A stretch of 29,023 nucleotides of DNA, from positions 1-29,023 of the IMG/VR virus record IMGVR_UViG_3300032084_000518; one strand, 5' to 3'. The notes below the pieces were generated by a model. It was not told the DNA's origin, did not search any database, and was given only the letters and a program-made list of their open reading frames with translations. The stretch is from a virus. Each line of letters opens with the position of its first letter. Within the stretch, counting starts at the first letter, position 1. Below, one piece after another: positions 4,498 through 29,023 of the stretch. Position numbers and translations under genes: made by a program.

Positions 4498-4574
4498 GCT
4501 CCCGTAGCTCAGCTGGATAGAGCATCTGCCTTCTAAGCAGACGGCCACAGGTTCGAATCCTGTCGGGAGTACCA
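4498..4574 (+). tRNA. tRNA-Arg (anticodon UCU)
   Basis: A complete 77-nt cloverleaf with encoded CCA. The acceptor GCTCCCG pairs with CGGGAGT (the first pair is G-U). The D arm is GCTC/GAGC, the anticodon stem TCTGC/GCAGA has loop CTTCTAA (anticodon TCT), and the T arm is ACAGG-TTCGAAT-CCTGT. It decodes AGA (and AGG by wobble). AGA looks common in the minus-strand virion genes, so it may support late translation. A strong terminator lies 46 nt downstream. Confidence 0.95.
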
Positions 4575-11425: not shown

Positions 11426-13318
11426 ATGACTCAGAAACAAACTATCCCTTGGGGAGAGGTGGGCTACCCTACCTTCAAACGTACCTACTCTCGACCGTTG
11501 AAAAACGGTAAGACAGAAGAGTGGGAAGACACTGTAGAACGTGTAATCGAAGCTTGCAACAAGCAGCTCAAGTGTGGATTCAGTACGCAAGAACAGGACA
11601 GCATCCGTGAGATGATGCTCAACCTGAAGGGTACTGTAGCTGGCCGCTTCCTGTGGCAGCTTGGTACTAAGACTGTTGATAGGCTTGGCCTACCATCATT
11701 GCAGAACTGTGCCTTCACTGTAGTGGACAGCCCAGTTCGTCCATTTACTTGGGCCTTCGAGATGCTGATGCTTGGGTCCGGTGTAGGGTTCAACATTCAG
11801 CGTGAGCACGTATACCAGCTACCCAAGGTGAAGCGTAAGGTGAAGGTCACTCGTCTGGATGAGAATGACGCTGACTTCATCGTGCCTGATTCTCGTGAGG
11901 GATGGGTGGAGCTTCTGGATCGTGTACTCAGAGCAAGCTTCGAGACTGGTAACAACTTCACCTTTGCAACTCACCTCATTCGTGGTAAGGGATCTGCGAT
12001 CAAGGGATTTGGAGGGACAGCATCTGGACCAGAAGATCTGGTGTGGGGAATGCTGGAGATCAACCGTATCCTCAACGAGCGATCAGGGAAGCGTCTGCGC
12101 CCTATTGATTGCCTCGACATCATGAACATCATCGGGAAGATTGTAGTGGCAGGAAACGTCCGCAGATCGGCTCAGATTGCCATTGGTGATCACGATGACT
12201 TGGAGTACCTGAGAGCTAAGCGCTGGGACTTAGGCGGCATTCCAAACTGGAGAGCCATGAGCAACAACTCTGTTGCCTGTGAGGACATCACCACTCTGCC
12301 CGATGAGTTTTGGGAAGGATATAAAGGCAACGGTGAGCCATACGGTTTGATCAACCTTGCCTCTTCACGCATTCAAGGGCGTACAGGTGAGACCCAGTAC
12401 CCTGACCCTGATGTGATGGGGTATAACCCTTGCGCTGAGCAATCACTTGCCAACTTCGAGACCTGCTGTCTGGCTGAGATCTATCTCCCAAACATTGAGA
12501 GCAAGGACGAACTCAAGAAAGTTGCTACCTTGTTGTACAGAATCAACAAGCATAGCCTCGCTATCCCATGTGCTGTCAAGGAGACCGAGGATATTGTACA
12601 CGCTAACATGCGTATGGGCATTGGTGTGACAGGATACCTGCAAGCTACAGATGAGCAACGTAGCTGGCTGTCAGATGTATACGTCCACCTTCGTGCATAC
12701 GATAAAGAATACTCTGCTCACCATGATTTTCCTGAGTCCATCAAGATCACCACAGTTAAGCCAAGTGGAACGTTGTCTCTTCTTGCTGGCGTTACTCCCG
12801 GAGCTCACCCCGGATACAGTCAGTACTACATTCGACGAATCCGAATGGCGGCAGATAGTGAACTTGCATCGGTGGCTAGGAACAATGGGTATTTCGTAGA
12901 GTATGTAAGAAACTTTGACGGCACAGAGGATCACTCTACTGTCGTTGTCGAGTTCCCCTGCCAGTTCCCTGCTGGAACTATGTTCGCTGATGACATGACT
13001 GCCATCGACCAGCTGAACGTAATCCGCAAACTGCAAGCAGAATGGAGCGACAACTCAGTATCGGTGACCATCTACTACCGAAAGGAAGAGCTCGACGCAA
13101 TCAAGGCATGGTTGACTGTCAACTACGTGAACACGAAGTCTGTCTCCTTCCTCCTGCACAGCGACCACGGGTTTGATCAGGCTCCTCTGGAGGAGATCAC
13201 CGAAGCTCGCTACTTGGAGATGAAAGAGAAAGTGACTCCGATCACGTCACTTGACAACCTCAACATGGATGACATTGACATCGCTGATTGCGATACAGGA
13301 GCATGCCCAGTAAGGTAG
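11426..13318 (+). CDS. nrdJ: Adenosylcobalamin-dependent ribonucleoside-triphosphate reductase (class II)
   Basis: 630 residues; converts NTPs to dNTPs by a B12-generated thiyl radical. The motifs match the monomeric Lactobacillus-type enzyme: C95 (QNCAFTVVD) and C347 as the redox pair, the thiyl Cys C336 and E338 in NPCAEQ, GNVRRSAQIAIGD, VKPSGTLSLLAGVTPG, and the C-terminal swinging pair C622/C627 in DCDTGACPVR. All five key Cys are present. It is shorter than the 739-residue Lactobacillus enzyme, with both inter-Cys distances reduced, which is common in phage versions. It supplies dNTPs for replication. The end overlaps a 39-residue Cys-rich gene. Confidence 0.95.
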   Translation: MTQKQTIPWGEVGYPTFKRTYSRPLKNGKTEEWEDTVERVIEACNKQLKCGFSTQEQDSIREMMLNLKGTVAGRFLWQLGTKTVDRLGLPSLQNCAFTVVDSPVRPFTWAFEMLMLGSGVGFNIQREHVYQLPKVKRKVKVTRLDENDADFIVPDSREGWVELLDRVLRASFETGNNFTFATHLIRGKGSAIKGFGGTASGPEDLVWGMLEINRILNERSGKRLRPIDCLDIMNIIGKIVVAGNVRRSAQIAIGDHDDLEYLRAKRWDLGGIPNWRAMSNNSVACEDITTLPDEFWEGYKGNGEPYGLINLASSRIQGRTGETQYPDPDVMGYNPCAEQSLANFETCCLAEIYLPNIESKDELKKVATLLYRINKHSLAIPCAVKETEDIVHANMRMGIGVTGYLQATDEQRSWLSDVYVHLRAYDKEYSAHHDFPESIKITTVKPSGTLSLLAGVTPGAHPGYSQYYIRRIRMAADSELASVARNNGYFVEYVRNFDGTEDHSTVVVEFPCQFPAGTMFADDMTAIDQLNVIRKLQAEWSDNSVSVTIYYRKEELDAIKAWLTVNYVNTKSVSFLLHSDHGFDQAPLEEITEARYLEMKEKVTPITSLDNLNMDDIDIADCDTGACPVR

Positions 13319-13800: not shown

Positions 13801-14252
13801 TTATCTTTCTTTACAGATGCGCCATAGTAGTACGCAAAGATATTCCCAATCACTACACCTTCAATCATACCCATTAGGTGGATGAATAGCTCGTTCTCTC
13901 GCACAGAGTCAATGTATACGACAGCGTAGATCGTGAACAGGAATGACAGCAACCCTACCATTCCAGTAACCATCATCATCCAGTCTACCTTTCCGGTAGC
14001 TTTCACTACTTCTACTTCACGCTGACGAGCAGACGCACGGTCGGAAGCCTCCAGTTCAAACGCCATACGTGCGAACTCAGCCTTCTGTGATGGATCTAAG
14101 TCTGGGTCATTCTGGATAAGGTTCTTCACCACACCCAGAACACCTTGGTCAGGCAGCAATTCCCCCGCCACGTCAAGCACCTTTGGGGCGTTGGTTTTTA
14201 ACCACTGCCCCAGCTTGGTGTCTTTGAACTTCTTCTTATTCTTCTCTGCCAT
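13797..14252 (-). CDS. Holin-like membrane protein (151 aa)
   Basis: Residues 1-90 are soluble and charged, with a linker that contains LEASDRASARQREVEVVKAT. Two hydrophobic helices follow at about 93-115 (MMMVTGMVGLLSFLFTIYAV) and 125-146, with a short basic tail KKDK. This layout (long helical N-terminus with a 'DR.SAR.RE' motif, then membrane helices) matches a phage holin family often described as 3TM holins. It would make inner-membrane holes for lysis, yet no endolysin gene is visible. It starts within the end of the giant gene (17-base overlap). Confidence 0.65.
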   Translation of the reverse strand: MAEKNKKKFKDTKLGQWLKTNAPKVLDVAGELLPDQGVLGVVKNLIQNDPDLDPSQKAEFARMAFELEASDRASARQREVEVVKATGKVDWMMMVTGMVGLLSFLFTIYAVVYIDSVRENELFIHLMGMIEGVVIGNIFAYYYGASVKKDK

Positions 14253-17200
14253 CGTAAATCTCTTGCATGATTCTAACCAGCTCGATAGAGTGAGGTCTCA
14301 ACTTGCCTCTTTCTATTTCTATCTGGCTGTTGTAATTCTGGTTCAACTCATTGAGAGCCTCCAGTTTTTCCTGATCGCTCAGTCTAAAGTACTTCTGGCT
14401 AGTGATCAACTCCTCTATCTCTGCGTATCTAGCTTTTCCTGACACGGCCATGAGTCTGTTCAGTTGCTCAGTGTTGAGGTACACCTTCTCATCCAAGAAC
14501 GCTCCGTCCTTCAGGAAGCTCAGATCGTCAAGACCAGCACGCTTCAGAGCCATCTTAGCTTTTCTGGTGGTCATGTTTGGCACATTGATCTTTCTCTTCT
14601 GAGCATAGCCCGGAGTACCAACCACATCAGGCACAGCCTCGAGTTGCTCGAACAGTCTGAACATCTCCTGTGACACATGATCGTCTTCACCCTTTCTCAG
14701 CTTAGTGATATCGAACAGCTGGTAAGTCCAACCCATGTTTCCTCTTGGGTTCTGCTCGATTGGCTGACCCTTCCAGTTGACTCTTACGGGGATGTCTGTT
14801 GTACCGAAGGTTCTGTCCTTCACGATGTACTCCAGTCTTTTGTACAGTCTCTCGCCGTAGCTCATATCCTTGGTGATACGAGTGTCAGGAAGGTACTCTC
14901 TCTCAGCTCTGTGCAGAGCGCTCAAGGTATTCGGGAGCGGGATGGCAGATACAGACTTGAATGTACTAGCCAACCATCTTTCAGATGCGGTAGAGAAGTC
15001 ATCAGGATCTGTCGAGGTCAGGATCTCCATGAAGTTGTTTACACCTTGCAGGAATGACTGATCCATCATGTGTGAGATTGAGCTGAATGGTCCCAATCCA
15101 AATGAATCTGTAACTGCGTGGTGCAAGAAACCAAAGTCCTCGTAGTCTCTGCTTCTGATCTCATCTCTGTCTGCACCCTTTATCATGGCACCCATAATGG
15201 TACCCGGAATACCCAGCTTGTTATAGCTAATGAACTGATCGTCAGGTCTTTTCTCTGTGCTCTCGCCGTTTATCCATCTTCTCAATCCTGAGATGTTGAT
15301 AGAGTTCGGTGGGAACTGATCGTATGCCAAGTTCTTCTCTTCGTCCTCATCCCACTCTACGGCACCTGAGATCAATCCTTCCTTGATGAGAACCATTGCT
15401 GCCTGAGTAACCATACTTCCTACCACGATCTTACCGAAGTTCTGGGCTGCTGATCTAGCATCCTTCTTCTTCAGGTCGCTCATGATCCTCACGCCTGCAA
15501 CGTATGGTGATACGAATGTCAGCGTGTCCATCAGGATGTTGGCTGGGGTACGAACGTATGGTACAGATGATCTCACGAGGAACTTACCTACAGCCTCCCC
15601 ATTTACTCCCGGCAGCACACCGAATCCTTTCGCAAGCATTCTTTGCAGGAAGTTGATTGACTGCTCCGCAATCTCAGAACCTGTTGTTCTTTCTTGGTAG
15701 GTCAGTTTTCTACCCTCACGCTCAGCCAGCTCTCGGGCTCTCTTGTCTGGGTACTTAACAAAGTTCTTAAGTGCCTGACCTTCAAGACCTTGAGCTAGGG
15801 CAGCTTGGTACAGCTCGATCCCTTCTACGCCCCTGCGGAATGGTGTATCACCGAGGGACAGGAATCGGAACATTGTCTCAGCTGGAATACCAAGCGTACC
15901 CTGCACGAACAGTTTAATTCGCTGGCTTAGGTTTGACTTACCGTCAACACCCATAGGCAGATCACCTCTACCCATTGCAGCCTTCAGCGATCGGAACGGA
16001 GCAAAGCCACGCTCTACTCTCCACTCGGTTACGTCTTTAGTCTGTCCAGTGTAGATCTCATCGAGAGCTTCTACGAATCCAGAACCGAACTTACGTATAC
16101 CGTACATATAAGCGTTGAGAGAGTAGTTTCTCTTGATCGGAGAGTCAATACCAAACAGGTTAATCAATCTTTCTACAGGAAGGGCTATCGCATCCACGGC
16201 TACTTTGCCAAGTGCGTTGATCATGTTGGCACCCACGTTGGTGATCTGTGACATTGGGGTCAGCAGGTTACCTTGGATGAGCTGGGTCAGCAAGTCGCCC
16301 CAGCCTTTCTCGATCACTGCGTTTGCAAACGTATTCAGCTCTCTCTCAGCTTTGAGAGCCTGATCAGTAATGCTCTTCAACTCAGCCTCTACATCCTCAC
16401 CAGCGATGGCTCGCTTCATAAGGTCTTCGTGCTTTTGCTGAAGGTCAAACAAAGTGGTAGTCATCTGAGTCAGCCTTTTCTTCTGATCGTCTGACAAGGT
16501 GTTACCTCTTCGCTCAACTTCTTTCATGAAGATCTGATACATACCCTGAGGGGTAGAGCTCTTGATCTCTCTGAAGTGTCTCAGCAGTCGTCCAGCGGTG
16601 GTACCAATCTTAGCGGCTTCTTCTATGAGGCCGGGGATTCTGTCGAGATCACCGTCAGCTACCGCCCTTGAGATCAGCTCGTTAACCGCAAGCACACCCA
16701 AGTCATCGTTTCTATTCTGAAGTCTACCGAGGGCATCGTTAGTCATGATGTCCACGAGCTCCTGAACACTCATTGATTCGAGCTTAGCTCTTGCATCCTT
16801 GAGGTTTTGCTTTGAGATGTAGTTCTCTGGGTTATCCAAGATGGCTTTCCTTGCGCCTTCGTATGTTCTAGCAGCTCTACCAGCAGTCTTTCTGAGTCTT
16901 CTAGAGGCTTTCATTCGAACCTCATTGTCTTGCAGGTTCTTAGCGTATTCACTCTTGTCCAGAGCTACTTGAGATTGTACCGGGAGTCTGTCGTATGCGG
17001 CCTCGAGTTCCGCTCTGGTCTCGTAGGTTACACCTAGAACCCTCTCGCTGTATCCCTTAAATCTGTTTACAGCTTTGTTGTACTTCTCACCTCTGGTGGT
17101 TCTCTTAGCTTTACCTTTTTCTGACTCTGCTCTACCAGCCGTCACGATTGGATCTGCGAAGTCGTAGTATTCGATCTCACCTCTGAGGAACACATCGTTA

Positions 17201-20200
17201 CCAATGATGGTAGCCTCGCTCGCTGACTTGATGGGACGGCCAGCTACATCCATGAAGACATTTGTCTTGAATGGATTGAATATAGCCTTAACCCCATCGA
17301 AGTTTGCTTCGTCAATACTTGCGCTAACGAACTCGCCGTTTACACTAGCCATTGGGAACTTGTTTTCTTGGAAGGTTGCGATCTTCTCTCTAGCCCCTTG
17401 GTTAACGTAAAACGTTGGGTTCTTGATAGTTACAGCAGTTGCGTACTTCAACGCTTTCCCTGACGCAGTCTTCTGGTGCAGAGTCTGTACTGGTACGCCA
17501 GTGTTCTTGAGTACGTTGAGGTTTAGCCTCACACCCACCATGTCGCCCACGTTGACCTCGTTGTTCTCGTTGATGATTCGAACTGAGTTTGCATCGGTGT
17601 TAAGTGCTTGACGCTCAGCCTCATTGGTAAGCATCTTGCCTCTGTAGTTCAGGGCTTCTTCTCGTGGTCTGTTTCTAAACAGATCAGAATCCTCTGCCAT
17701 TTGCTTGAGCGGAACATCATCCATTGGGATGGTATCAAACAAAGAGAGTTGATGCTCTTGAACTCTACTCAGTCTTCTAGACAGCTTAGTCTGGTCATTG
17801 CTCTCCGCATATCTCGGTGGATCGTTTGCATCGAGATCAGCCTGCTCAGATACGCTCATAGCGTTCTCAGACATTCTCTCGTACATGGGTCTTCCATCTG
17901 GACCTTCAGCCATAAGCTTATCCATGATGCGTGCGTTGGGTGTATACTCAACCCCAAACGTAGCTTGACTGGTTGCGTAGATAGCCTGTCCAACCTCAGC
18001 TGGTGAAACACCAAGCTCTTTAGCAACAGCCTGCATCACCTCTGCGTTGAACTTGCGAATTTTAACAGTGTCCTCGTGAGTCTTCGGCGTAATAAGTTTG
18101 CCGTAGATCCTGCTTGCTTTCTTACGCACCTCGAGAGGTTTGCTCTGGTCGTTTCTAAGATCTACCAGCGCATTCATCAATCTTTTTGCACCCATCCCCT
18201 TGGTGTTGACACCAAGCGACTCAAGGTCAGCTCTAAGCTTGTCAATGTTGCCCTTTCCAAACTGTCTGTAGTCTGGCATTCTTCCGGTGAGCACACCGAA
18301 GTACGAGAATACGTGGGAGTCTTGGGTCGGTACGCTCAGGTCTCCAGCCAAGTTCAATCCGTAAGCACCAAGCTTTTGTCCGAACTGAGTTTGAGCAAAC
18401 ACATCAAACCTTTTTCCTACAGGCTCACCCATCTTCTTGATGAACGCCTGAGGTCTGAACTTACCGTCAGCGTTAGCAAATCCTTTGGATAATTCGTTAA
18501 GGATTTCTAGCTGGCTAGATATTCTAACCATTCTGTCTCCTCTGACATATCCATACTCCAAGTCGTAATCACTTTGTTTTTGGATGAGGTCTATCACCTT
18601 TTTAGGGATGACACCAGTAGTAGCCACATCTGTATTGCCACTCTGATATTCCTTGGCAATGACTCTAAACAAATCCATAGACACTCCAAGGTTAGGAGTA
18701 GCTCTCGATCCATTCGAAGTGATGGCAACAACAAAGTCAAAGATTGGCTCTAACTCCTTCATGACCTGCTGGTCAATACCATCTCTTCTGCTAAGGGTTT
18801 CAAAGTATCTTGCCTTTGCCTCCTTGTGATCCTTAAAGAAAGTCATTGGGTCAACACCGTTGAGATCTTCTTTAATCACATTAGCGTCCTGAAGCAGCTT
18901 AACTTCTCTAGAAAGAATCTCAACAATTCTGGCCTGAGCTTCCTTTGGGTTGTCTCTGAACAACTCGTATGTGAGTCCATATCTTTCTCTGAGCGCGTGG
19001 CTGAAGAACTGTCTAAGCGTAGTGTCTGTCGCAGCAGAGCACAGCTTCTTGAGTCCAATCTTGTTGCACAGGTACTCATTCTTCAGCTTTGAAAACCTAG
19101 CGTAGTTTATTTCTAGCTTGGAAATAGGTCTTTCAATGAACTCTTTCTTCAGAAGCAGAGAAGCTTTAGCTGATGGGTCGTCTTCAGGGAAGTGGAAGTT
19201 TTTGTTTTGTCGCTTCGCTTCTTTTGCTAGAAAGGCAACTTGCTTCTCCTCAATGTCTCGAGCACGCTTAACAAGTCTATCATAGTAGTCCTTACCCATG
19301 AACTCTTTGTCGCTGTCAGACATTCCCTCATAGGTTCTGATCTTGTTCTTGATGGCTCTCATCTGATTAGCCATAGCACCAGCGATAGTACGATTGACGA
19401 TACCTTGCGAAACAGCATCGGCATTTCTTCTCGTGAACCTGTTGGTTACTTCAGACCCCTCACCTCCGTATCGGTTGAGTCTGGTAGAGTATCTAGGCTT
19501 GTCCTTGAACTTCGCATTCACCAGTTGGTTTACGTCGATGGTTCTGCCATCAACCTCAAAATCAAAGACCTCTTCGTTCTTACCGAAGTCTGTAGCTTTT
19601 TTCCACCAGTTAATGAAGTGCCACTTACCATTGAAGGTCATCGAGTCCTCGTAGTTCCCAATGTTTTTTCTAGATCCGTCTCGATAGTACTTGTAGTTTG
19701 TTCTGCGGAACTTTACCTCGATAGGGCCGTCCTCCTTGAGTGCAAAAGCAGACAGTCTTTGAGATTTCTTGGCTTGGTCTTTTGCTTTTTGCTCTACTTG
19801 AATCCTGAGATCTGCACCATCTTGGAATCTCTTAATAGCGGCCACCATGTCTAACACAGAAGAGTCTGACTTAATAGTCAGGTCTTTCATACCAGCAGCA
19901 CTCAAGATGTTGTTGATGATTACCCTAACCTTAGATGCCAGTCCTGTCTTGACGTTCAAATCTTCAGCGGCTACCGCTGAAAGGAACTCAACCAAAACTT
20001 CTTCATCAACCAAGGCAGCATCCGCTCCTGTGTCTGTGTATGTCTTTGCTTTTGACCTAAGTCTCTCGGCAAGGGCGGGATCTGATTTGACGAGTCTGTC
20101 GATCTCTCGCCTCATTTTCTTGCGCTGGGCTGGAGTCATATTCTCTACCGCAGGCCCAATCAATGCGTGGAAAGACTCCTCTAGAATTGTTTCGCTAAGA

Positions 20201-23200
20201 GTTTTCGGTCTAGTTATGCCAGCCTGAGCTTCGAGTGTAGCATTTAGCGCAACAACTTCGGGGTTGATGTACAGGGTGTTTCCAACCCACATGCCTCCAA
20301 CTACAGAAAAATCTACACCTTTTTCGCCAATCTGTTTTCCAATTGCAACAGCGCTATCGAAGTCGTGAGCAATTACAACCCTAAGGTTCGGATACATTTT
20401 CTTAATGCGAGCCAAGTACCTGTTCAGGAACCTTCTATCCTTTTGAGTCAAGTGAGGTACATCTTCAGGAACTCTATAGGAGCCATCCTCCATTGCGTTG
20501 AGCTCAGTAGATTTTATCTCTGTGGTGTCGGTCTCTTCAGAGAATACGTCAGCCTCTGCTTCTGCATCCGTCTCAACGGCAGCTTCGGGCTGGACTTTTT
20601 CTGAGAGGTTAGTTTCAACCTCAACAGTCTCCACTACATTACCGTCAGCATCTCTCTGCTCAAACACTACCGCACCAGTAGGAACTTCGCCTTCTACGTT
20701 TACATCTTTGATCTCTTTGACTGTAACACTACCACCCTCTTGGGTTGGCTCTGGCATCTGATCTTCAGGAACCTCAAATCTGTCTGCTTCAGTTTGTGCT
20801 GGCGGCTCGTCTATATCTTTTACCGCTTCATTCTCAGGGTTGAGGCCGAGATATTCAAAAAGGTTTTGCTGAGCATCAACTACTTCCTCTCTCGCTGCTT
20901 CTTTGAGTCTTTGCATCTCAGCCTCTCCGGTTGGAGTAAACGGCGATGGATCTTTACCTTCCTCTAAGTCCTGAAGCTTCTTTTTAGCGTCGAAGTATTC
21001 CTGCTTAAGTCTTTGAGCCTCAGCAAGATCATCCTCTGTTTTCTTCAGCAGCCTTTCACCTTGCTCTCTGGTGGTTTCGCTAAGACCGTCAGGACCAGCC
21101 TCAGCACGCTCTTTGGCTGCTACCCTTTGTACCTCAAGTTCTTTATTGATGAATTCTATTTTTTCATCAATCTTCTTTTCAGCAAGAGTCTGTCTCTCTT
21201 CTGTCGTGAGAGGGGTGTCCTTTAGCTCTGCCTTATACTTGGAAGTGATTTGATTTCTTTGATCGACTAACGCCTTGAGCTCCCCTCGGATTTGCCCTTG
21301 CTGCTCGGGGGCAGCTTTTTTCATTTCGACACTCTTCTTGTAGATCTCAATATCAAGCTTATTGATAGAGTCTAATTCTTTAGGGTGTCTGACGGACATC
21401 ATCTCAAACAAAGGAGCTTGAGAGTTGTTAATCTCTCTTACCTTCTTGTCTATTTCCTCAATATTGGCTGCGAGGACTGCTTTCTTTTTTGCGCTGCTAG
21501 TGTTATCGTGCAGCTTGAGAAGCTCTGCTCTGTCAGCCGCAAGCACTTGCAAGGCTGAGGTCAGATCAACATCATACTTACCGCCTACTATTGCTGCTTT
21601 AACTTTACCGACAGCACCACCAGTTGCGTCAAAAACACTACCAATTGCAGCACCCATGATCGCACCCTCAAGCGCTTGATCAAACATTTCGCTCATTGAG
21701 ACTTCCTCTCCTTTTGAGTTAGCCTCAATCATATACTGCATGGCGCTGGTAGTCGCTTCAGACAAAGCCTCACCACCAATTGATAAACCACGGGCAGTAG
21801 CGTAACCCTTAAGCATCTGCTGGTTCAACAGCTTACCACTCTCCTTAGAAATAATCCTACCAGCTCTGAATGACTTCTCAGCGGTTTGCATAGCAGCATT
21901 GGTCTTAAATCCATATCGACCAATTCTACCTAAGGCATAATCCCCCAAACCTGTTACGATAGAGTAGCCGATCTTGTCTGCGGTACCGAGAGCTCCTTCG
22001 CCCCAGCCCTCTTGATCTGCAATCTCCATGTAAGTGGCACTACCTGTACCGAGCCCGTATAACAGCTGTGATCCAGAACCTTTGATGAGACCTTTGTAAG
22101 CAGCCTTCCCAATCTTTGATGCTCTTGAAAAGCGTGCTGCTGTCATTCCAGCTCTAGCTGCGAGCGCCCCAAACTTTGCGAAAGAAGCACCACTAGCTAT
22201 AGAGGCACCACCTGTCGCAACGCCCTCAACAGCAGTCATTGCAATGAGTGGGAGCATAGCGCCTACACCGTTGCCGATGTGAGTAAACCCAGCAATGATA
22301 TCGCCATCGCTGAATGACTCAGTCATGCTTTTTGTAAGGATAGTTGCGTCAGCGTACTCAGCCTCCAGCCTTCTATTGAACAAGTCTCTTCTTACCTTGG
22401 CCTCTTCATCAGTTTCAAAGTCACCACCAAACGCTTCAGCAATGCTGTCTGCTGCGCTAATAAAGAAACCTCCAATACCATTGATCATTCTGAACAGCTC
22501 GGCATCTGCTGACGCTGCTAGAGATCCAAAGATGCCTTGGCTATTGTACTGCCCGTCATTGTCAAGATCCGTGTCTAGACCATACTCAAAGTACATCTTG
22601 TCTGAAAAGTTCTCCAAGAAGTCTTCGTCATCCTTCATCTCTTCAGGGAAGGCGTTTCTCACAATAGCAGCACCCTTTTCTTCCATAAAAGTTTGGAAGG
22701 AAGACTGAATGCCCTGCTGCCGGATTTCCTCCAAAGCAAGATGATAGTCTGATTCGCTGATCTCACCAGCATCTAACTGATCCGCAAGAGCATCTTGAGC
22801 GGGCTTGTTGTGGTTCCTGATGTTCTCCATCAAACCTTCTTGCTCACGGAATCTGTCTGAAATGTTTTTATAGAGGTCTTCTGCAAGCTGCTCTTGCTCC
22901 TCCGTAAACTCGTACTCCAAATAATCGGGAGGTGCGGGCAGATCGTTTTGCAAGTGAGAGGGCAGGCTCTCGTAGTACTCTTTGTATGCAGGGGTTCCCC
23001 TCGGGGGGATGGGCATGTCGTTTCTTAACTGCTGATCGTCGTCATCAAACAAGCTTGAAGATATAGCTGAAGGTGTCGCGCCAACAAGACCGAGGACTCC
23101 CAGTGCCGGACCAGCACTTGCTTGTGTTAGAGCGTCACCCGTGCTCGACACACCAAAGCCCATGTAGTCTGAGGCGTACTGGAATCCTTCTTCAGGCTCA

Positions 23201-23547
23201 CCTTGCTTCAATGCGTTACTCAACCACGAGGAGTACGCATCACCAATCTCAGTCTGTGCTTTGTTTACTAGGTCAACTTGACCCTCTTGCAAGGAAGATT
23301 CCGAGTCTGGTTCTTCCAAATCTGAGATAAACGGCTGATCCGGAGCTGTGTTTTGAACGTCCTGCCCCGATAAATCTTCGGCTGGCTGGGGCGCTTCCGA
23401 TCCTTTTTTTTTTGAGATAATATCTGTGATCAACTGGTTTCTACTTCCAGTAAAACCCTCCGATGAAGTAATAGACTTGTAGACCTCCATCTCAGTCATA
23501 CCCTGAGATAGCAACTCATCAATTTGGTTGAAGTACTCTTCGTTCAT
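14236..23547 (-). CDS. Giant polyvalent / ejected virion protein (3103 aa)
   Basis: Likely the counterpart of T7 gp16-type ejected proteins, since it follows gp14- and gp15-like genes; its content fits the 'polyvalent' giant phage proteins. Layout (approximate residues): a disordered acidic N-terminus; hydrophobic, Gly/Ala-rich probable membrane-insertion segments about 420-655 (GVGAMLPLIAMTAVEGVATG; LEGAIMGAAIGSVF); a long coiled coil about 665-870; an acidic linker about 900-1040; a zincin-like domain about 1050-1230 whose motif is EESFH (1123-1127) instead of HExxH; helical parts, including FVVAITSNGSRATPNLG; a segment VGVRLNLNVLKNTGVPVQTL; and C-terminal LPD-like helices from about 2400 (LLTQLIQGNLLTPMSQITNV). 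I see no T7- or N4-type RNA polymerase motifs and no transglycosylase. An A10 run lies near codon 46. Confidence 0.8.
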   Translation of the reverse strand: MNEEYFNQIDELLSQGMTEMEVYKSITSSEGFTGSRNQLITDIISKKKGSEAPQPAEDLSGQDVQNTAPDQPFISDLEEPDSESSLQEGQVDLVNKAQTEIGDAYSSWLSNALKQGEPEEGFQYASDYMGFGVSSTGDALTQASAGPALGVLGLVGATPSAISSSLFDDDDQQLRNDMPIPPRGTPAYKEYYESLPSHLQNDLPAPPDYLEYEFTEEQEQLAEDLYKNISDRFREQEGLMENIRNHNKPAQDALADQLDAGEISESDYHLALEEIRQQGIQSSFQTFMEEKGAAIVRNAFPEEMKDDEDFLENFSDKMYFEYGLDTDLDNDGQYNSQGIFGSLAASADAELFRMINGIGGFFISAADSIAEAFGGDFETDEEAKVRRDLFNRRLEAEYADATILTKSMTESFSDGDIIAGFTHIGNGVGAMLPLIAMTAVEGVATGGASIASGASFAKFGALAARAGMTAARFSRASKIGKAAYKGLIKGSGSQLLYGLGTGSATYMEIADQEGWGEGALGTADKIGYSIVTGLGDYALGRIGRYGFKTNAAMQTAEKSFRAGRIISKESGKLLNQQMLKGYATARGLSIGGEALSEATTSAMQYMIEANSKGEEVSMSEMFDQALEGAIMGAAIGSVFDATGGAVGKVKAAIVGGKYDVDLTSALQVLAADRAELLKLHDNTSSAKKKAVLAANIEEIDKKVREINNSQAPLFEMMSVRHPKELDSINKLDIEIYKKSVEMKKAAPEQQGQIRGELKALVDQRNQITSKYKAELKDTPLTTEERQTLAEKKIDEKIEFINKELEVQRVAAKERAEAGPDGLSETTREQGERLLKKTEDDLAEAQRLKQEYFDAKKKLQDLEEGKDPSPFTPTGEAEMQRLKEAAREEVVDAQQNLFEYLGLNPENEAVKDIDEPPAQTEADRFEVPEDQMPEPTQEGGSVTVKEIKDVNVEGEVPTGAVVFEQRDADGNVVETVEVETNLSEKVQPEAAVETDAEAEADVFSEETDTTEIKSTELNAMEDGSYRVPEDVPHLTQKDRRFLNRYLARIKKMYPNLRVVIAHDFDSAVAIGKQIGEKGVDFSVVGGMWVGNTLYINPEVVALNATLEAQAGITRPKTLSETILEESFHALIGPAVENMTPAQRKKMRREIDRLVKSDPALAERLRSKAKTYTDTGADAALVDEEVLVEFLSAVAAEDLNVKTGLASKVRVIINNILSAAGMKDLTIKSDSSVLDMVAAIKRFQDGADLRIQVEQKAKDQAKKSQRLSAFALKEDGPIEVKFRRTNYKYYRDGSRKNIGNYEDSMTFNGKWHFINWWKKATDFGKNEEVFDFEVDGRTIDVNQLVNAKFKDKPRYSTRLNRYGGEGSEVTNRFTRRNADAVSQGIVNRTIAGAMANQMRAIKNKIRTYEGMSDSDKEFMGKDYYDRLVKRARDIEEKQVAFLAKEAKRQNKNFHFPEDDPSAKASLLLKKEFIERPISKLEINYARFSKLKNEYLCNKIGLKKLCSAATDTTLRQFFSHALRERYGLTYELFRDNPKEAQARIVEILSREVKLLQDANVIKEDLNGVDPMTFFKDHKEAKARYFETLSRRDGIDQQVMKELEPIFDFVVAITSNGSRATPNLGVSMDLFRVIAKEYQSGNTDVATTGVIPKKVIDLIQKQSDYDLEYGYVRGDRMVRISSQLEILNELSKGFANADGKFRPQAFIKKMGEPVGKRFDVFAQTQFGQKLGAYGLNLAGDLSVPTQDSHVFSYFGVLTGRMPDYRQFGKGNIDKLRADLESLGVNTKGMGAKRLMNALVDLRNDQSKPLEVRKKASRIYGKLITPKTHEDTVKIRKFNAEVMQAVAKELGVSPAEVGQAIYATSQATFGVEYTPNARIMDKLMAEGPDGRPMYERMSENAMSVSEQADLDANDPPRYAESNDQTKLSRRLSRVQEHQLSLFDTIPMDDVPLKQMAEDSDLFRNRPREEALNYRGKMLTNEAERQALNTDANSVRIINENNEVNVGDMVGVRLNLNVLKNTGVPVQTLHQKTASGKALKYATAVTIKNPTFYVNQGAREKIATFQENKFPMASVNGEFVSASIDEANFDGVKAIFNPFKTNVFMDVAGRPIKSASEATIIGNDVFLRGEIEYYDFADPIVTAGRAESEKGKAKRTTRGEKYNKAVNRFKGYSERVLGVTYETRAELEAAYDRLPVQSQVALDKSEYAKNLQDNEVRMKASRRLRKTAGRAARTYEGARKAILDNPENYISKQNLKDARAKLESMSVQELVDIMTNDALGRLQNRNDDLGVLAVNELISRAVADGDLDRIPGLIEEAAKIGTTAGRLLRHFREIKSSTPQGMYQIFMKEVERRGNTLSDDQKKRLTQMTTTLFDLQQKHEDLMKRAIAGEDVEAELKSITDQALKAERELNTFANAVIEKGWGDLLTQLIQGNLLTPMSQITNVGANMINALGKVAVDAIALPVERLINLFGIDSPIKRNYSLNAYMYGIRKFGSGFVEALDEIYTGQTKDVTEWRVERGFAPFRSLKAAMGRGDLPMGVDGKSNLSQRIKLFVQGTLGIPAETMFRFLSLGDTPFRRGVEGIELYQAALAQGLEGQALKNFVKYPDKRARELAEREGRKLTYQERTTGSEIAEQSINFLQRMLAKGFGVLPGVNGEAVGKFLVRSSVPYVRTPANILMDTLTFVSPYVAGVRIMSDLKKKDARSAAQNFGKIVVGSMVTQAAMVLIKEGLISGAVEWDEDEEKNLAYDQFPPNSINISGLRRWINGESTEKRPDDQFISYNKLGIPGTIMGAMIKGADRDEIRSRDYEDFGFLHHAVTDSFGLGPFSSISHMMDQSFLQGVNNFMEILTSTDPDDFSTASERWLASTFKSVSAIPLPNTLSALHRAEREYLPDTRITKDMSYGERLYKRLEYIVKDRTFGTTDIPVRVNWKGQPIEQNPRGNMGWTYQLFDITKLRKGEDDHVSQEMFRLFEQLEAVPDVVGTPGYAQKRKINVPNMTTRKAKMALKRAGLDDLSFLKDGAFLDEKVYLNTEQLNRLMAVSGKARYAEIEELITSQKYFRLSDQEKLEALNELNQNYNSQIEIERGKLRPHSIELVRIMQEIYDGREE

Positions 23548-26101: not shown

Positions 26102-29023
26102 TTAAACGTGATTGAGGTTAGACGGCGTGTAGTGGGCGTTTACGCAGAACAGCTCGTACTTATTGTTGTTGGTTGAGCTCATCTTGATCTTAGTGAAGTG
26201 ACCTCTGATTGAATCTCCATTCAACTCTTTTGGCAGATCCATTACTACAACCTGACCATTAAGAAGAACCGTGTCACCAGATATCTTTACAAGCGGACCA
26301 AGTACGTCAGATAAAACAGAATTACCAGCGGTAACCACTGTGTCTCCAACTCCAATGTTTTCTAAAGCCCCATCAACAAAGTACCTTAACTCAGCCCCTT
26401 CTATCACGCCGTTGGGAAACTCGCGCAACCTTAGGAAGAAGTCGCCGTCAATCTGTTCAGTACCAACGACTAGACCTAAATACCTAATATGAGATGTGCT
26501 GTTAGGGCCGATATCTCTACCCACCTGTGCATAGAATGTGCCTTCTCTCTTTGAGAATTTATCTACACCAATGTTAGATATAGACCCATCACTAGACTCG
26601 ATTGAGCAGTTCATGAGTCCGTTCGTAACCTCCTGAGATACAGCATCATACACTTTCACTGTACTTGGCTGCGTGTTTGAAATAACCTCAACAAATGATT
26701 GACTTGTGTTCTGGTTGTAGAACTGACACCTGTTGTTAGCAGCATTGTTGTCAGCATGCTTGTGCATCAGTAGCGGGAACCCAACAGGCAGATCTGGGAA
26801 GGTGTCGTCATTTACGTACTTAACAGTGTACATCGAATTGTCTTGATTCGCATACACGTCTGGGTAGAATGAGTTTCTTGATTGCCAGAACCTACCGCCA
26901 GAATTAAAAGAAAGGGTAAATCCGATATATCCTTCTTCGGCTAAGTAGTTAATCACATCGGCAGCGAGATCCTCTCCGAGTATGTCGATATTATCCAAAG
27001 CATCCTCAATATCTTCTGGGGTCAATGGCTCACCAGAATCACCTACAGGAGTGCCATCCTCAAACGTAACCACTTGATTCTCAACGTCGAAAAATACAGG
27101 CTGTCCGTTTATTTGAAGTTGGGTTGTTCCTTTTGCTAAATAAAGATCTCCATCAGCATACTGTAAGAATGTATTTACGGCGGTTCCAAAAGCTCCTAAC
27201 AGAAGAAGTATGTCTGAGGTACCTACTGATCCATCAAAGTTTAAGTCCGCTGTCGATAGCAAGGTTTGAGTAAAGTTACCGTTACCGTCAGATTCGTATA
27301 CAGGTATATCATTCTCTACGTCATTACCGAATGCACCAAGAAGCGACAATAAATCTGAAGTTCCAACAACTCCGTTTCCATCTAGATCTGGATTAAAGTA
27401 CAGAGGTACAAGCACTGGAGGATTGTCAACACCCTCGTCACCTTGATCACCTTCTACAACGGCACCGCTTTGATATCCTAGCTGCTGAGCAGGCACGAAT
27501 GTGATGTAGTATACCTCATCATCTGGATCGTATCCAGAAACAATTCTTCCTGCATTTCTCCCGTAGATCTTGTTGAACACTCCAATAGCATCGTCAAACA
27601 AGCTAGATACCCCCTGATCTGAAATCGGAACGAGTTGACCACCCGAGAATCGCAAGCACTTATGTCTACTTCTGTCAAAGAAGTAAACGTCATTATCCTG
27701 CACCAGAACAGACTCGGGGTGATTACCACAGCCGTAGTCTCCTGCGTAATAGGTAGTTGTTCTAAGAACTTCAGTAGATAGCGCTACGTTTGTGCTACCA
27801 GAAGCGTCAGTAATAATGCTCTTGTTTACAGGAGTCTTTGAGAACTTATTCTCTTGGATCGCTACAAGCTCGTCATAACCTTGTTGCTCAGTTCCGTAGT
27901 TAGAGATAAAGTTGCAAGCACCGTATTGACTATCGAGACTGTAGAAATTAGCTGTACCCGGATTAAATGAAGTAAGGGACAGTCTGGACACGTCTTCTGC
28001 ATACCCATCACTGTAAGTAACCCCGTTAAATCTACGGAAGGTAGCTGCATTCTCAAACTTTACGTGAGGTCGCCCTTGACTCCACATCTTGTCACCCAGC
28101 TTTTCAGATACAGTAAAGTTCTCTAACGCCTGAGTTCTGTACTCAAGAAGATCAAAGTTCTTTCTAAATACATTAAAGATGTCAGCGGTCTCGTCAAACT
28201 TTGGACCCTTGCATGGGACAGCTCTATAGTTAATGTCCCCTGAGTCGATTATAAACGCTGGCCCGTGAGGATTGCCACCACCCTGTCTGGGTTGTATTCT
28301 TTTAGGCTCTCCGATCTCGTAGTAGAACTGATTCTCTACGCTTTTCTTGGGTGTAAATATTTCTACTACGCACTGTCGTATCCAGCCGTTGGTTGCTACA
28401 GGCACTTGACCATCTGCATTCACGTAGTCAAAATCGTTCTCGTTTGAGCCGCCTGCACCTTGAGTTGCGGTTGAGCTTCTCCTGTATCTAGAGATAGCAT
28501 TCCAGTCGAATCCCGGATACCTGAGTATGTTGCCGTCTTCACCGTAAGCACCGCCAGCTATTGCGCTACACTCTAGCACCAAGAACTTACCAGTCATGTG
28601 CTCGGGGATCTTATTTAGATTTTCTAACTCAGTACTGGTCTCACTATATGCAATCGGATTGTCGATGTCACGAGCAAGCAGCTCCACGCCGACAACATCA
28701 AACTCAATGATGGACCCATCTGAAGCCTCTCTGTAGTTAGTTACCAACTCATTCTCAGTAGTATCTTCGTCCAATGTGCCGTTGATCTCTGATTGAAAGC
28801 TGATGACTCTCAACTTATCACCCTCGGTAAAGTTGTAATCTCTGAAAGTGTTTCGCTCATCTCTGTATTGATCAAGGGACTCAAGGCTTACATACAGTCT
28901 CCTTGACTCTATATCAATATCCCTATTAGCAAGATTTGCAGGGGTGACCTCACCTTCCTCTTGAGGAAACTTTACTCTAGCAGGATATGCATCCACCACA
29001 CTGTACTGAATAAAATCAGATAC
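26102..29023 (-). CDS. Large tail protein (gp12-like position) with dockerin repeats, 5'-partial
   Basis: At least 965 residues from the first GTG (28999), but the frame stays open to the right edge (VSDFIQYS before it), so the true start lies outside. The length, mainly beta composition and segments such as SVLVQDNDVYFFDRSRHKCL and VYYITFVPA look like the propeller-like part of podoviral tail tubular protein B. The order tail protein, gp14-, gp15-, gp16-like supports that. Two dockerin-type calcium loops interrupt it (27388-27185), followed by an acidic helical stretch (LTPEDIEDALDNIDILGEDL). The exact tail role is inferred. Confidence 0.65.
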   Translation of the reverse strand, partial: VSDFIQYSVVDAYPARVKFPQEEGEVTPANLANRDIDIESRRLYVSLESLDQYRDERNTFRDYNFTEGDKLRVISFQSEINGTLDEDTTENELVTNYREASDGSIIEFDVVGVELLARDIDNPIAYSETSTELENLNKIPEHMTGKFLVLECSAIAGGAYGEDGNILRYPGFDWNAISRYRRSSTATQGAGGSNENDFDYVNADGQVPVATNGWIRQCVVEIFTPKKSVENQFYYEIGEPKRIQPRQGGGNPHGPAFIIDSGDINYRAVPCKGPKFDETADIFNVFRKNFDLLEYRTQALENFTVSEKLGDKMWSQGRPHVKFENAATFRRFNGVTYSDGYAEDVSRLSLTSFNPGTANFYSLDSQYGACNFISNYGTEQQGYDELVAIQENKFSKTPVNKSIITDASGSTNVALSTEVLRTTTYYAGDYGCGNHPESVLVQDNDVYFFDRSRHKCLRFSGGQLVPISDQGVSSLFDDAIGVFNKIYGRNAGRIVSGYDPDDEVYYITFVPAQQLGYQSGAVVEGDQGDEGVDNPPVLVPLYFNPDLDGNGVVGTSDLLSLLGAFGNDVENDIPVYESDGNGNFTQTLLSTADLNFDGSVGTSDILLLLGAFGTAVNTFLQYADGDLYLAKGTTQLQINGQPVFFDVENQVVTFEDGTPVGDSGEPLTPEDIEDALDNIDILGEDLAADVINYLAEEGYIGFTLSFNSGGRFWQSRNSFYPDVYANQDNSMYTVKYVNDDTFPDLPVGFPLLMHKHADNNAANNRCQFYNQNTSQSFVEVISNTQPSTVKVYDAVSQEVTNGLMNCSIESSDGSISNIGVDKFSKREGTFYAQVGRDIGPNSTSHIRYLGLVVGTEQIDGDFFLRLREFPNGVIEGAELRYFVDGALENIGVGDTVVTAGNSVLSDVLGPLVKISGDTVLLNGQVVVMDLPKELNGDSIRGHFTKIKMSSTNNNKYELFCVNAHYTPSNLNHV
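27185..27388 (-). other. Tandem dockerin-like Ca-binding repeats inside the tail protein
   Basis: Repeat 1 (27388-27326) reads DLDGNGVVGTSD + LLSLLGAFG; repeat 2 (27247-27185) reads DLNFDGSVGTSD + ILLLLGAFG. Both keep the ligand spacing of the dockerin F-hand loop (positions 1, 3, 5, 12: D/D/N/D and D/N/D/D) and the hydrophobic helix that follows. They start 47 residues apart, wider than in classical type I dockerins. Dockerin modules are common at C-termini of secreted Bacteroidota proteins; here they lie internally in a virion protein. Confidence 0.75.

Follow-up and report, generated by a model that had tools for sequence, protein, structure and literature searches.

A dockerin-type repeat pair inserted at a variable propeller turn in the predicted tail-tip muzzle protein of a crassvirus-like phage

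In crAss001, the muzzle protein gp44 forms a hexamer at the tail tip and is built from a propeller, a crass domain, and two Ig domains; it has been proposed to act as an ejection gatekeeper and to make contact with the cell, and IG1 sits beneath the propeller, on the cell side. Muzzle proteins vary in length by insertions, and published work assigned this variation to the crass and IG2 regions (PMC10172136). BACON domains are known from tail-region proteins of crAss-like phages, including as tandem repeats, and have been proposed to bind the host (PMC6949934). Dockerin-type pairs are known from secreted proteins of Planctomycetota and Flavobacteriales, as in the “planctosome” proposal (PMC6461901). 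The open-licence literature searched yielded no account of a virion protein bearing a dockerin-type module, and no description of BACON or other modules at the muzzle turn considered below. What appears to be new here is a dockerin-type module in a crassvirus-type muzzle, at a turn that serves as both insertion and split site. It was identified in a 29,023-nucleotide stretch of viral DNA, hereafter the window.

The module lies in a 973-residue open reading frame cut at its 5′ end by the window edge (Table 1); the full-length relative in record L002 has 1790 residues, and the window protein corresponds to the last 973 of about 1790. The Pfam family PF25729 (crAss_MUZ_C) matched the whole protein with an E-value of 3e-5 and its last 464 residues with 1.5e-5, just below the 27-bit cut-off, and was also matched by 14 of 51 relatives (best 3.3e-19), three relatives matching PF25731. 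A match to phrog_14478, a virion structural protein family, was obtained at 2.7e-36, tblastn linked the carrier to structural proteins of Cellulophaga, Flavobacterium, and Maribacter phages, and the orthologue gp097 of Cellulophaga phage phi40:1 owes its annotation to MS/MS proteomics. Downstream of the muzzle, the window encodes proteins of 284, 555, and 3103 residues, the same order of smaller genes followed by a giant virion protein as in phi40:1. Taken together, these matches provide good support for identifying the carrier as the muzzle at the tail tip of a crassvirus-like podovirus, a marine relative of gut crAss phages; this muzzle would share with gp44 (PDB 7qok; PF25729/PF25731) a propeller and a muzzle C-terminal domain. 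The sequence-only reading had placed the pair in a phage tail protein, an assignment that holds and can be narrowed to the muzzle. The BT4734-like primase N-terminus encoded in the window, together with the nearest cultured phages, points to a Bacteroidota host.

Table 1 Features of the muzzle reading frame and its insertion (positions in the window).
Feature	Positions	Strand	Residues and description
Muzzle (tail-tip) protein, 3′ part (predicted)	26102..29023	(-)	973 aa, 5′ end cut by window edge
Propeller strand upstream of insertion	27497..27535	(-)	aa 497-509, GYDPDDEVYYITF; conserved in relatives (alignment A1); AF2 strand 504-511
Insertion	26933..27490	(-)	~186 aa (aa 512-697); shared by window, L002, and L003; sister phages lack it
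Dockerin-type repeat 1	27326..27388	(-)	aa 546-566; DLDGNGVVGTSD loop + LLSLLGAFG helix; pLDDT 90-95 in domain model
Linker between repeats	27248..27325	(-)	aa 567-592, 26 aa; linker of bacterial pairs ~10 aa to about half that length (alignment)
Dockerin-type repeat 2	27185..27247	(-)	aa 593-613; DLNFDGSVGTSD loop + ILLLLGAFG helix; pLDDT ~89-93 in domain model
Second conserved insertion piece	27029..27184	(-)	aa 614-665; NGQPVFxDVxxxxVxFxDGxPV; predicted beta hairpins (AF2)
Propeller strands downstream of insertion	26858..26923	(-)	aa 701-722, GFTLSFNSGGRFWQSRNSFYPD
Crassvirus muzzle C-terminal domain match	26513..26734	(-)	aa 764-837; PF25729

Positions 27185–27388 translate without a stop, on the minus strand only, which the sequence-only reading had not specified, into DLDGNGVVGTSDLLSLLGAFG, the linker, and DLNFDGSVGTSDILLLLGAFG, corresponding to residues 546–613 of the carrier. 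The loop pattern D-x-[DN]-x-[DN]-G-x-[VIL]-x3-D-h-h occurs twice in the protein, each time with a helix-like stretch after it, and acidic or amide ligands are present at loop positions 1, 3, 5, and 12 of both repeats. These ligands are kept in L002, and in the second relative bearing the insertion, L003, the second loop is partly altered (lengthened, not canonical). A dockerin profile search had been suggested as a check on the sequence-only reading: Pfam Dockerin_1 (PF00404) does span both repeats, with E-values of 0.022 (whole 973 residues), 0.0019 (last 464 residues), 4e-4 (segment alone), and 5.9e-5 (own-genome search), but its scores of 15.4–20.9 bits never reach the curated cut-off of 22.9 bits. 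Searched against PDB sequences, the segment found the dockerin 2y3n as best match (E 0.012), followed by calmodulins; the whole protein and the A1 profile gave no match there, a tblastn search of cultured phages with the segment gave none either, and a consensus repeat pair used as query returned chance-level matches only. The sub-threshold Pfam scores would be compatible with a chance resemblance, i.e., a low-complexity, D/N/G-rich loop that merely looks like a dockerin. We regard this as extremely improbable: two correctly spaced loops with helices are present, whereas when the residues of the protein were shuffled 20,000 times, even a single such loop arose in only 5 of the shuffles; the pair is 44–63% identical to many bacterial pairs (trimmed alignment) and conserved in two relatives; and the structural model and Foldseek search described below concur. 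The likeness of the two repeats, identical at 15 of 21 residues, had been taken as a sign of recent duplication, which their DNA contradicts, with 34 of 63 bases (54%) and 4 of 21 third positions identical, and the same codon used at only 2 of the 15 positions that share a residue.

We next considered the predicted fold and its placement. A domain model of residues 535–640, built with 35 relatives, gave pLDDT values of 90–95 for repeat 1 and close to 90 for repeat 2, and predicts a dockerin fold of two loops and two helices. When this model was searched with Foldseek, the best PDB matches all contained dockerins (7/7), although with weak E-values (best 8.5e-3), and most of the top structures were type II cohesin–dockerin; 2y3n_B was matched with a probability of 1.00, a TM-score of 0.83 over the dockerin length, an rmsd of 2.3, and an E-value of 0.014. 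The modelled fold is not independent evidence because the model’s alignment contained bacterial dockerins. The loops were modelled confidently and not as propeller turns, the outcome that would have spoken against the initial reading. The segment thus resembles a dockerin (PF00404; type II 2y3n) in its pair of F-hand Ca2+ loops with a short helix after each, and in its predicted fold, and differs from one in being internal to a virion protein instead of C-terminal in a secreted enzyme, in its long linker, and in its sub-cut-off score. The AlphaFold model of the whole 973-residue protein, which covers the downstream half of the muzzle, was poor (pLDDT 44.7) and too weak to show or dismiss a gp44-like propeller and crass fold; strands 504–511 and 702–707 flank the insertion in this model, and helices span residues 555–563 and 602–612. 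Combined with a Foldseek search, it was rejected as too weak a guide to placement. Because this model is poor, we infer a surface position for the insertion from the strand order and the IG1 site in crAss001 gp44. Judged by strand motif (D-x4-strand, then insertion), with the register set by eye, the turn corresponds to the IG1 insertion site of gp44. A search with the A1 profile recovered neither gp44 nor 7qok, and because the profile does not reach gp44, the register was taken from the motif. Unlike gp44, in which the turn is short, the window muzzle carries the dockerin-type insertion there.

In an alignment with relatives, the dockerin pair falls within ~186 extra residues between the strands GYDPDDEVYYITF and GFTLSFNSGGRFWQS. 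Six sister phages (records L167 to L172; 36–49% identity) lack these residues: tblastn matches in their records end at residue ~511 and resume at ~698 with few codons between, and the gap between the flanking blocks is 7–21 residues, compared with 188–198 where the insertion is present. Relatives either lack the insert or carry calcium-type loops; the outcome that would have refuted the sequence-only reading, non-calcium-binding versions in all related tail proteins, did not occur. Within the insertion, identity is 69% to L002 and 34% to L003, as against 82–86% and 50–66% in the respective flanks, suggesting that the insertion evolves faster than its flanks yet retains loop ligands, as expected for an exposed, functional part. 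The NGQPVF piece, which adjoins the dockerin pair, is kept even in the divergent L003 (alignment of window, L002, and L003), and PHROGs searches returned no family for this piece or for the insertion. In the window, third-position GC of the insertion is low (0.31 against 0.44–0.47), as it is mildly in L002; foreign base composition was dropped as a sign of capture because the L003 insertion does not have low third-position GC. In two sister phages, one dockerin-like loop occurs elsewhere, in a different virion or fibre-like protein: in G041/L163, a loop 68% identical over residues 546–576 lies in a 498-residue frame, and in G045/L176, DLDGDGLVTAQDLLLLLAQYG belongs to a protein of 357 residues, the N-terminal part of which looks similar, on inspection by eye, to that of a collagen-like tail-fibre protein in L164, which also has a loop.

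To describe the turn across the family, we surveyed muzzle relatives using one profile for the block before it and another for the block after it, which showed a place of insertion or gene splitting across ~75 of them. Both blocks were found in one frame in 24 distinct relatives, window included, separated by 4–21 residues in 13 and by 132–299 residues in 11, while in ~50 further relatives the gene is split at the turn and the second frame resumes at the next strand; for 22 relatives, mostly short contigs, the second block was not found. Split muzzles include L006 (phi19:3), L007, L033, L043, L050, and ~45 more, and on some of these contigs >3 kb and intervening genes separate the two parts. 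Pfam modules following the same strand in relatives include BACON, TSP_3 (1.5e-43), cadherin/Big, Ig, and Fib_succ_major; in L011 and L174, GCTDPxACNY repeats and an EF/dockerin loop follow it, and three dockerin-like loops without a Pfam match were seen by eye in L009. In L019, L020, and L021 (about residues 1095–1800), long TSP3 arrays (DDDNDGVLDxxDAFPLDxxES) directly follow the conserved GGYDPTDRSY strand, and the rest of the propeller is encoded in a separate gene. Judging from these sequences, the turn behaves as a socket that, depending on the phage, is short, bears modules of bacterial extracellular type, or is the point at which the gene is split. The dockerin-type module resembles BACON as a Bacteroidota extracellular module recruited by crass-like phages, and several relatives have BACON in this very socket of the muzzle; BACON differs in being Ig-like and, as far as known, Ca2+-independent, and has not been described as part of a muzzle swap site. 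Overall, sequence comparison supports well the module, its place, its presence and absence among relatives, and the socket. A broader and more speculative reading, which we put forward only tentatively, is that crassvirus-like phages use the turn as a general socket for exchange, filling it with Ca2+-dependent and adhesion modules copied from the secretomes of their Bacteroidota hosts, and that the module present determines which surface or matrix the tail tip engages.

A repeat-pattern genome scan identified at least 69 confirmed bacterial loci with comparable pairs, mostly in Planctomycetota and some in Flavobacteriales. The motif D-L-[DN]-G-[DN]-G-V-V-G-x-x-D-L-L-x-L-L-x-x-[FW]-G is common to these pairs and the phage. 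In the loci inspected, the pair nearly always stands at the protein C-terminus, with a linker of ~10 residues, whereas the phage pair is internal. Flavobacteriales pairs end in FG or YG and most Planctomycetota pairs in WG; the phage pair ends in FG. In the Flavobacteriales loci L122 and L132, GCTDPxACNY repeats directly precede the pair, the same combination as in the phage muzzle L011. Because the sister phages lack the insertion, the module was probably gained, and its resemblance to bacterial secreted proteins agrees with the capture suggested from the sequence at the outset; the simplest reading is that it was captured from Bacteroidota hosts, although so short a domain does not allow a tree to prove this. 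Several candidates were set aside: L160 and L161 resemble bacterial secreted proteins on short contigs, and partial-length Dockerin_1 matches in L178, L179, L181, and L183 were judged unrelated, being lysine-rich single EF loops in small proteins. These loops (KLDANKDGKISGxDFKML; DLNKDGKVDQKDILKGRG) represent a different, recurrent calcium-loop type.

In cellulosomal dockerins, loop positions 10–11 carry cohesin specificity, and both phage repeats have T-S at these positions. This identity, the dockerins among the top structural matches (most from type II cohesin–dockerin structures), and the presence of cohesins in the dockerin-rich Planctomycetota genome G057 would fit a working dockerin that docks on a host-surface cohesin, as had been envisaged from the sequence, or on a cohesin of the virion. 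We nevertheless consider this quite unlikely, since positions 10–11 are not kept in L002 (T-N, V-P) or L003, no cohesin was found in 12 phage records, window included, and none scored above cut-off in five dockerin-bearing Flavobacteriales genomes. This last result also bears on a second alternative, namely that dockerin-type loops in such genomes may be Ca2+-folded caps or spacers, and that in the phage the two Ca2+ sites serve solely as a structural staple, rigidifying a muzzle loop or subunit/fibre contacts with no ligand outside the virion. The hydrophobic LLGAFG helix ends could pack internally, and the conservation of the remaining insertion (NGQPVF piece) would fit a staple as well. Against it, sister phages manage without the insertion, the insertion evolves faster than its flanks, and unrelated modules, several of adhesion type, occupy the same site, for which outward decoration fits better than a needed brace; a bare staple is the main rival, to which we assign a minority share of the probability.

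We instead favor, with moderate confidence, a tail-tip decoration of host type that is folded by Ca2+ and probably used in surface contact. To our knowledge, the muzzle fold was novel when seen, and we know of no ligand for its distal surface. In the favored scenario, a module most likely acquired from Flavobacteriales/Planctomycetota-type bacteria before the window, L002, and L003 diverged takes the place of the short turn between two beta-propeller strands. Binding of one Ca2+ per loop would fold the module at the Ca2+ concentration of seawater. It would protrude from the tail tip, with six copies present should the muzzle form a hexamer like that of crAss001. The role we prefer is contact with host material, whereby the module may help reach the envelope of the host or extracellular matter while the phage adsorbs; we infer Ca2+ binding, exposure, contact, and hexamer alike. 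The insertion site gives a testable candidate for tail-tip contact with the host, and relatives with, without, or with a different module at this defined site form a comparison set for adsorption and Ca2+ dependence.

Elsewhere in the window, the 3103-residue virion-region protein (14236–23547, minus strand) has a Phage_L5_gp82 match at residues 2017–2119 and a possible zinc-protease-like stretch (LEESFHALIG). The early region encodes a tRNA-Arg(tct) at 4498–4574 and a class II (B12-dependent type) ribonucleotide reductase at 11426–13318, both on the plus strand.
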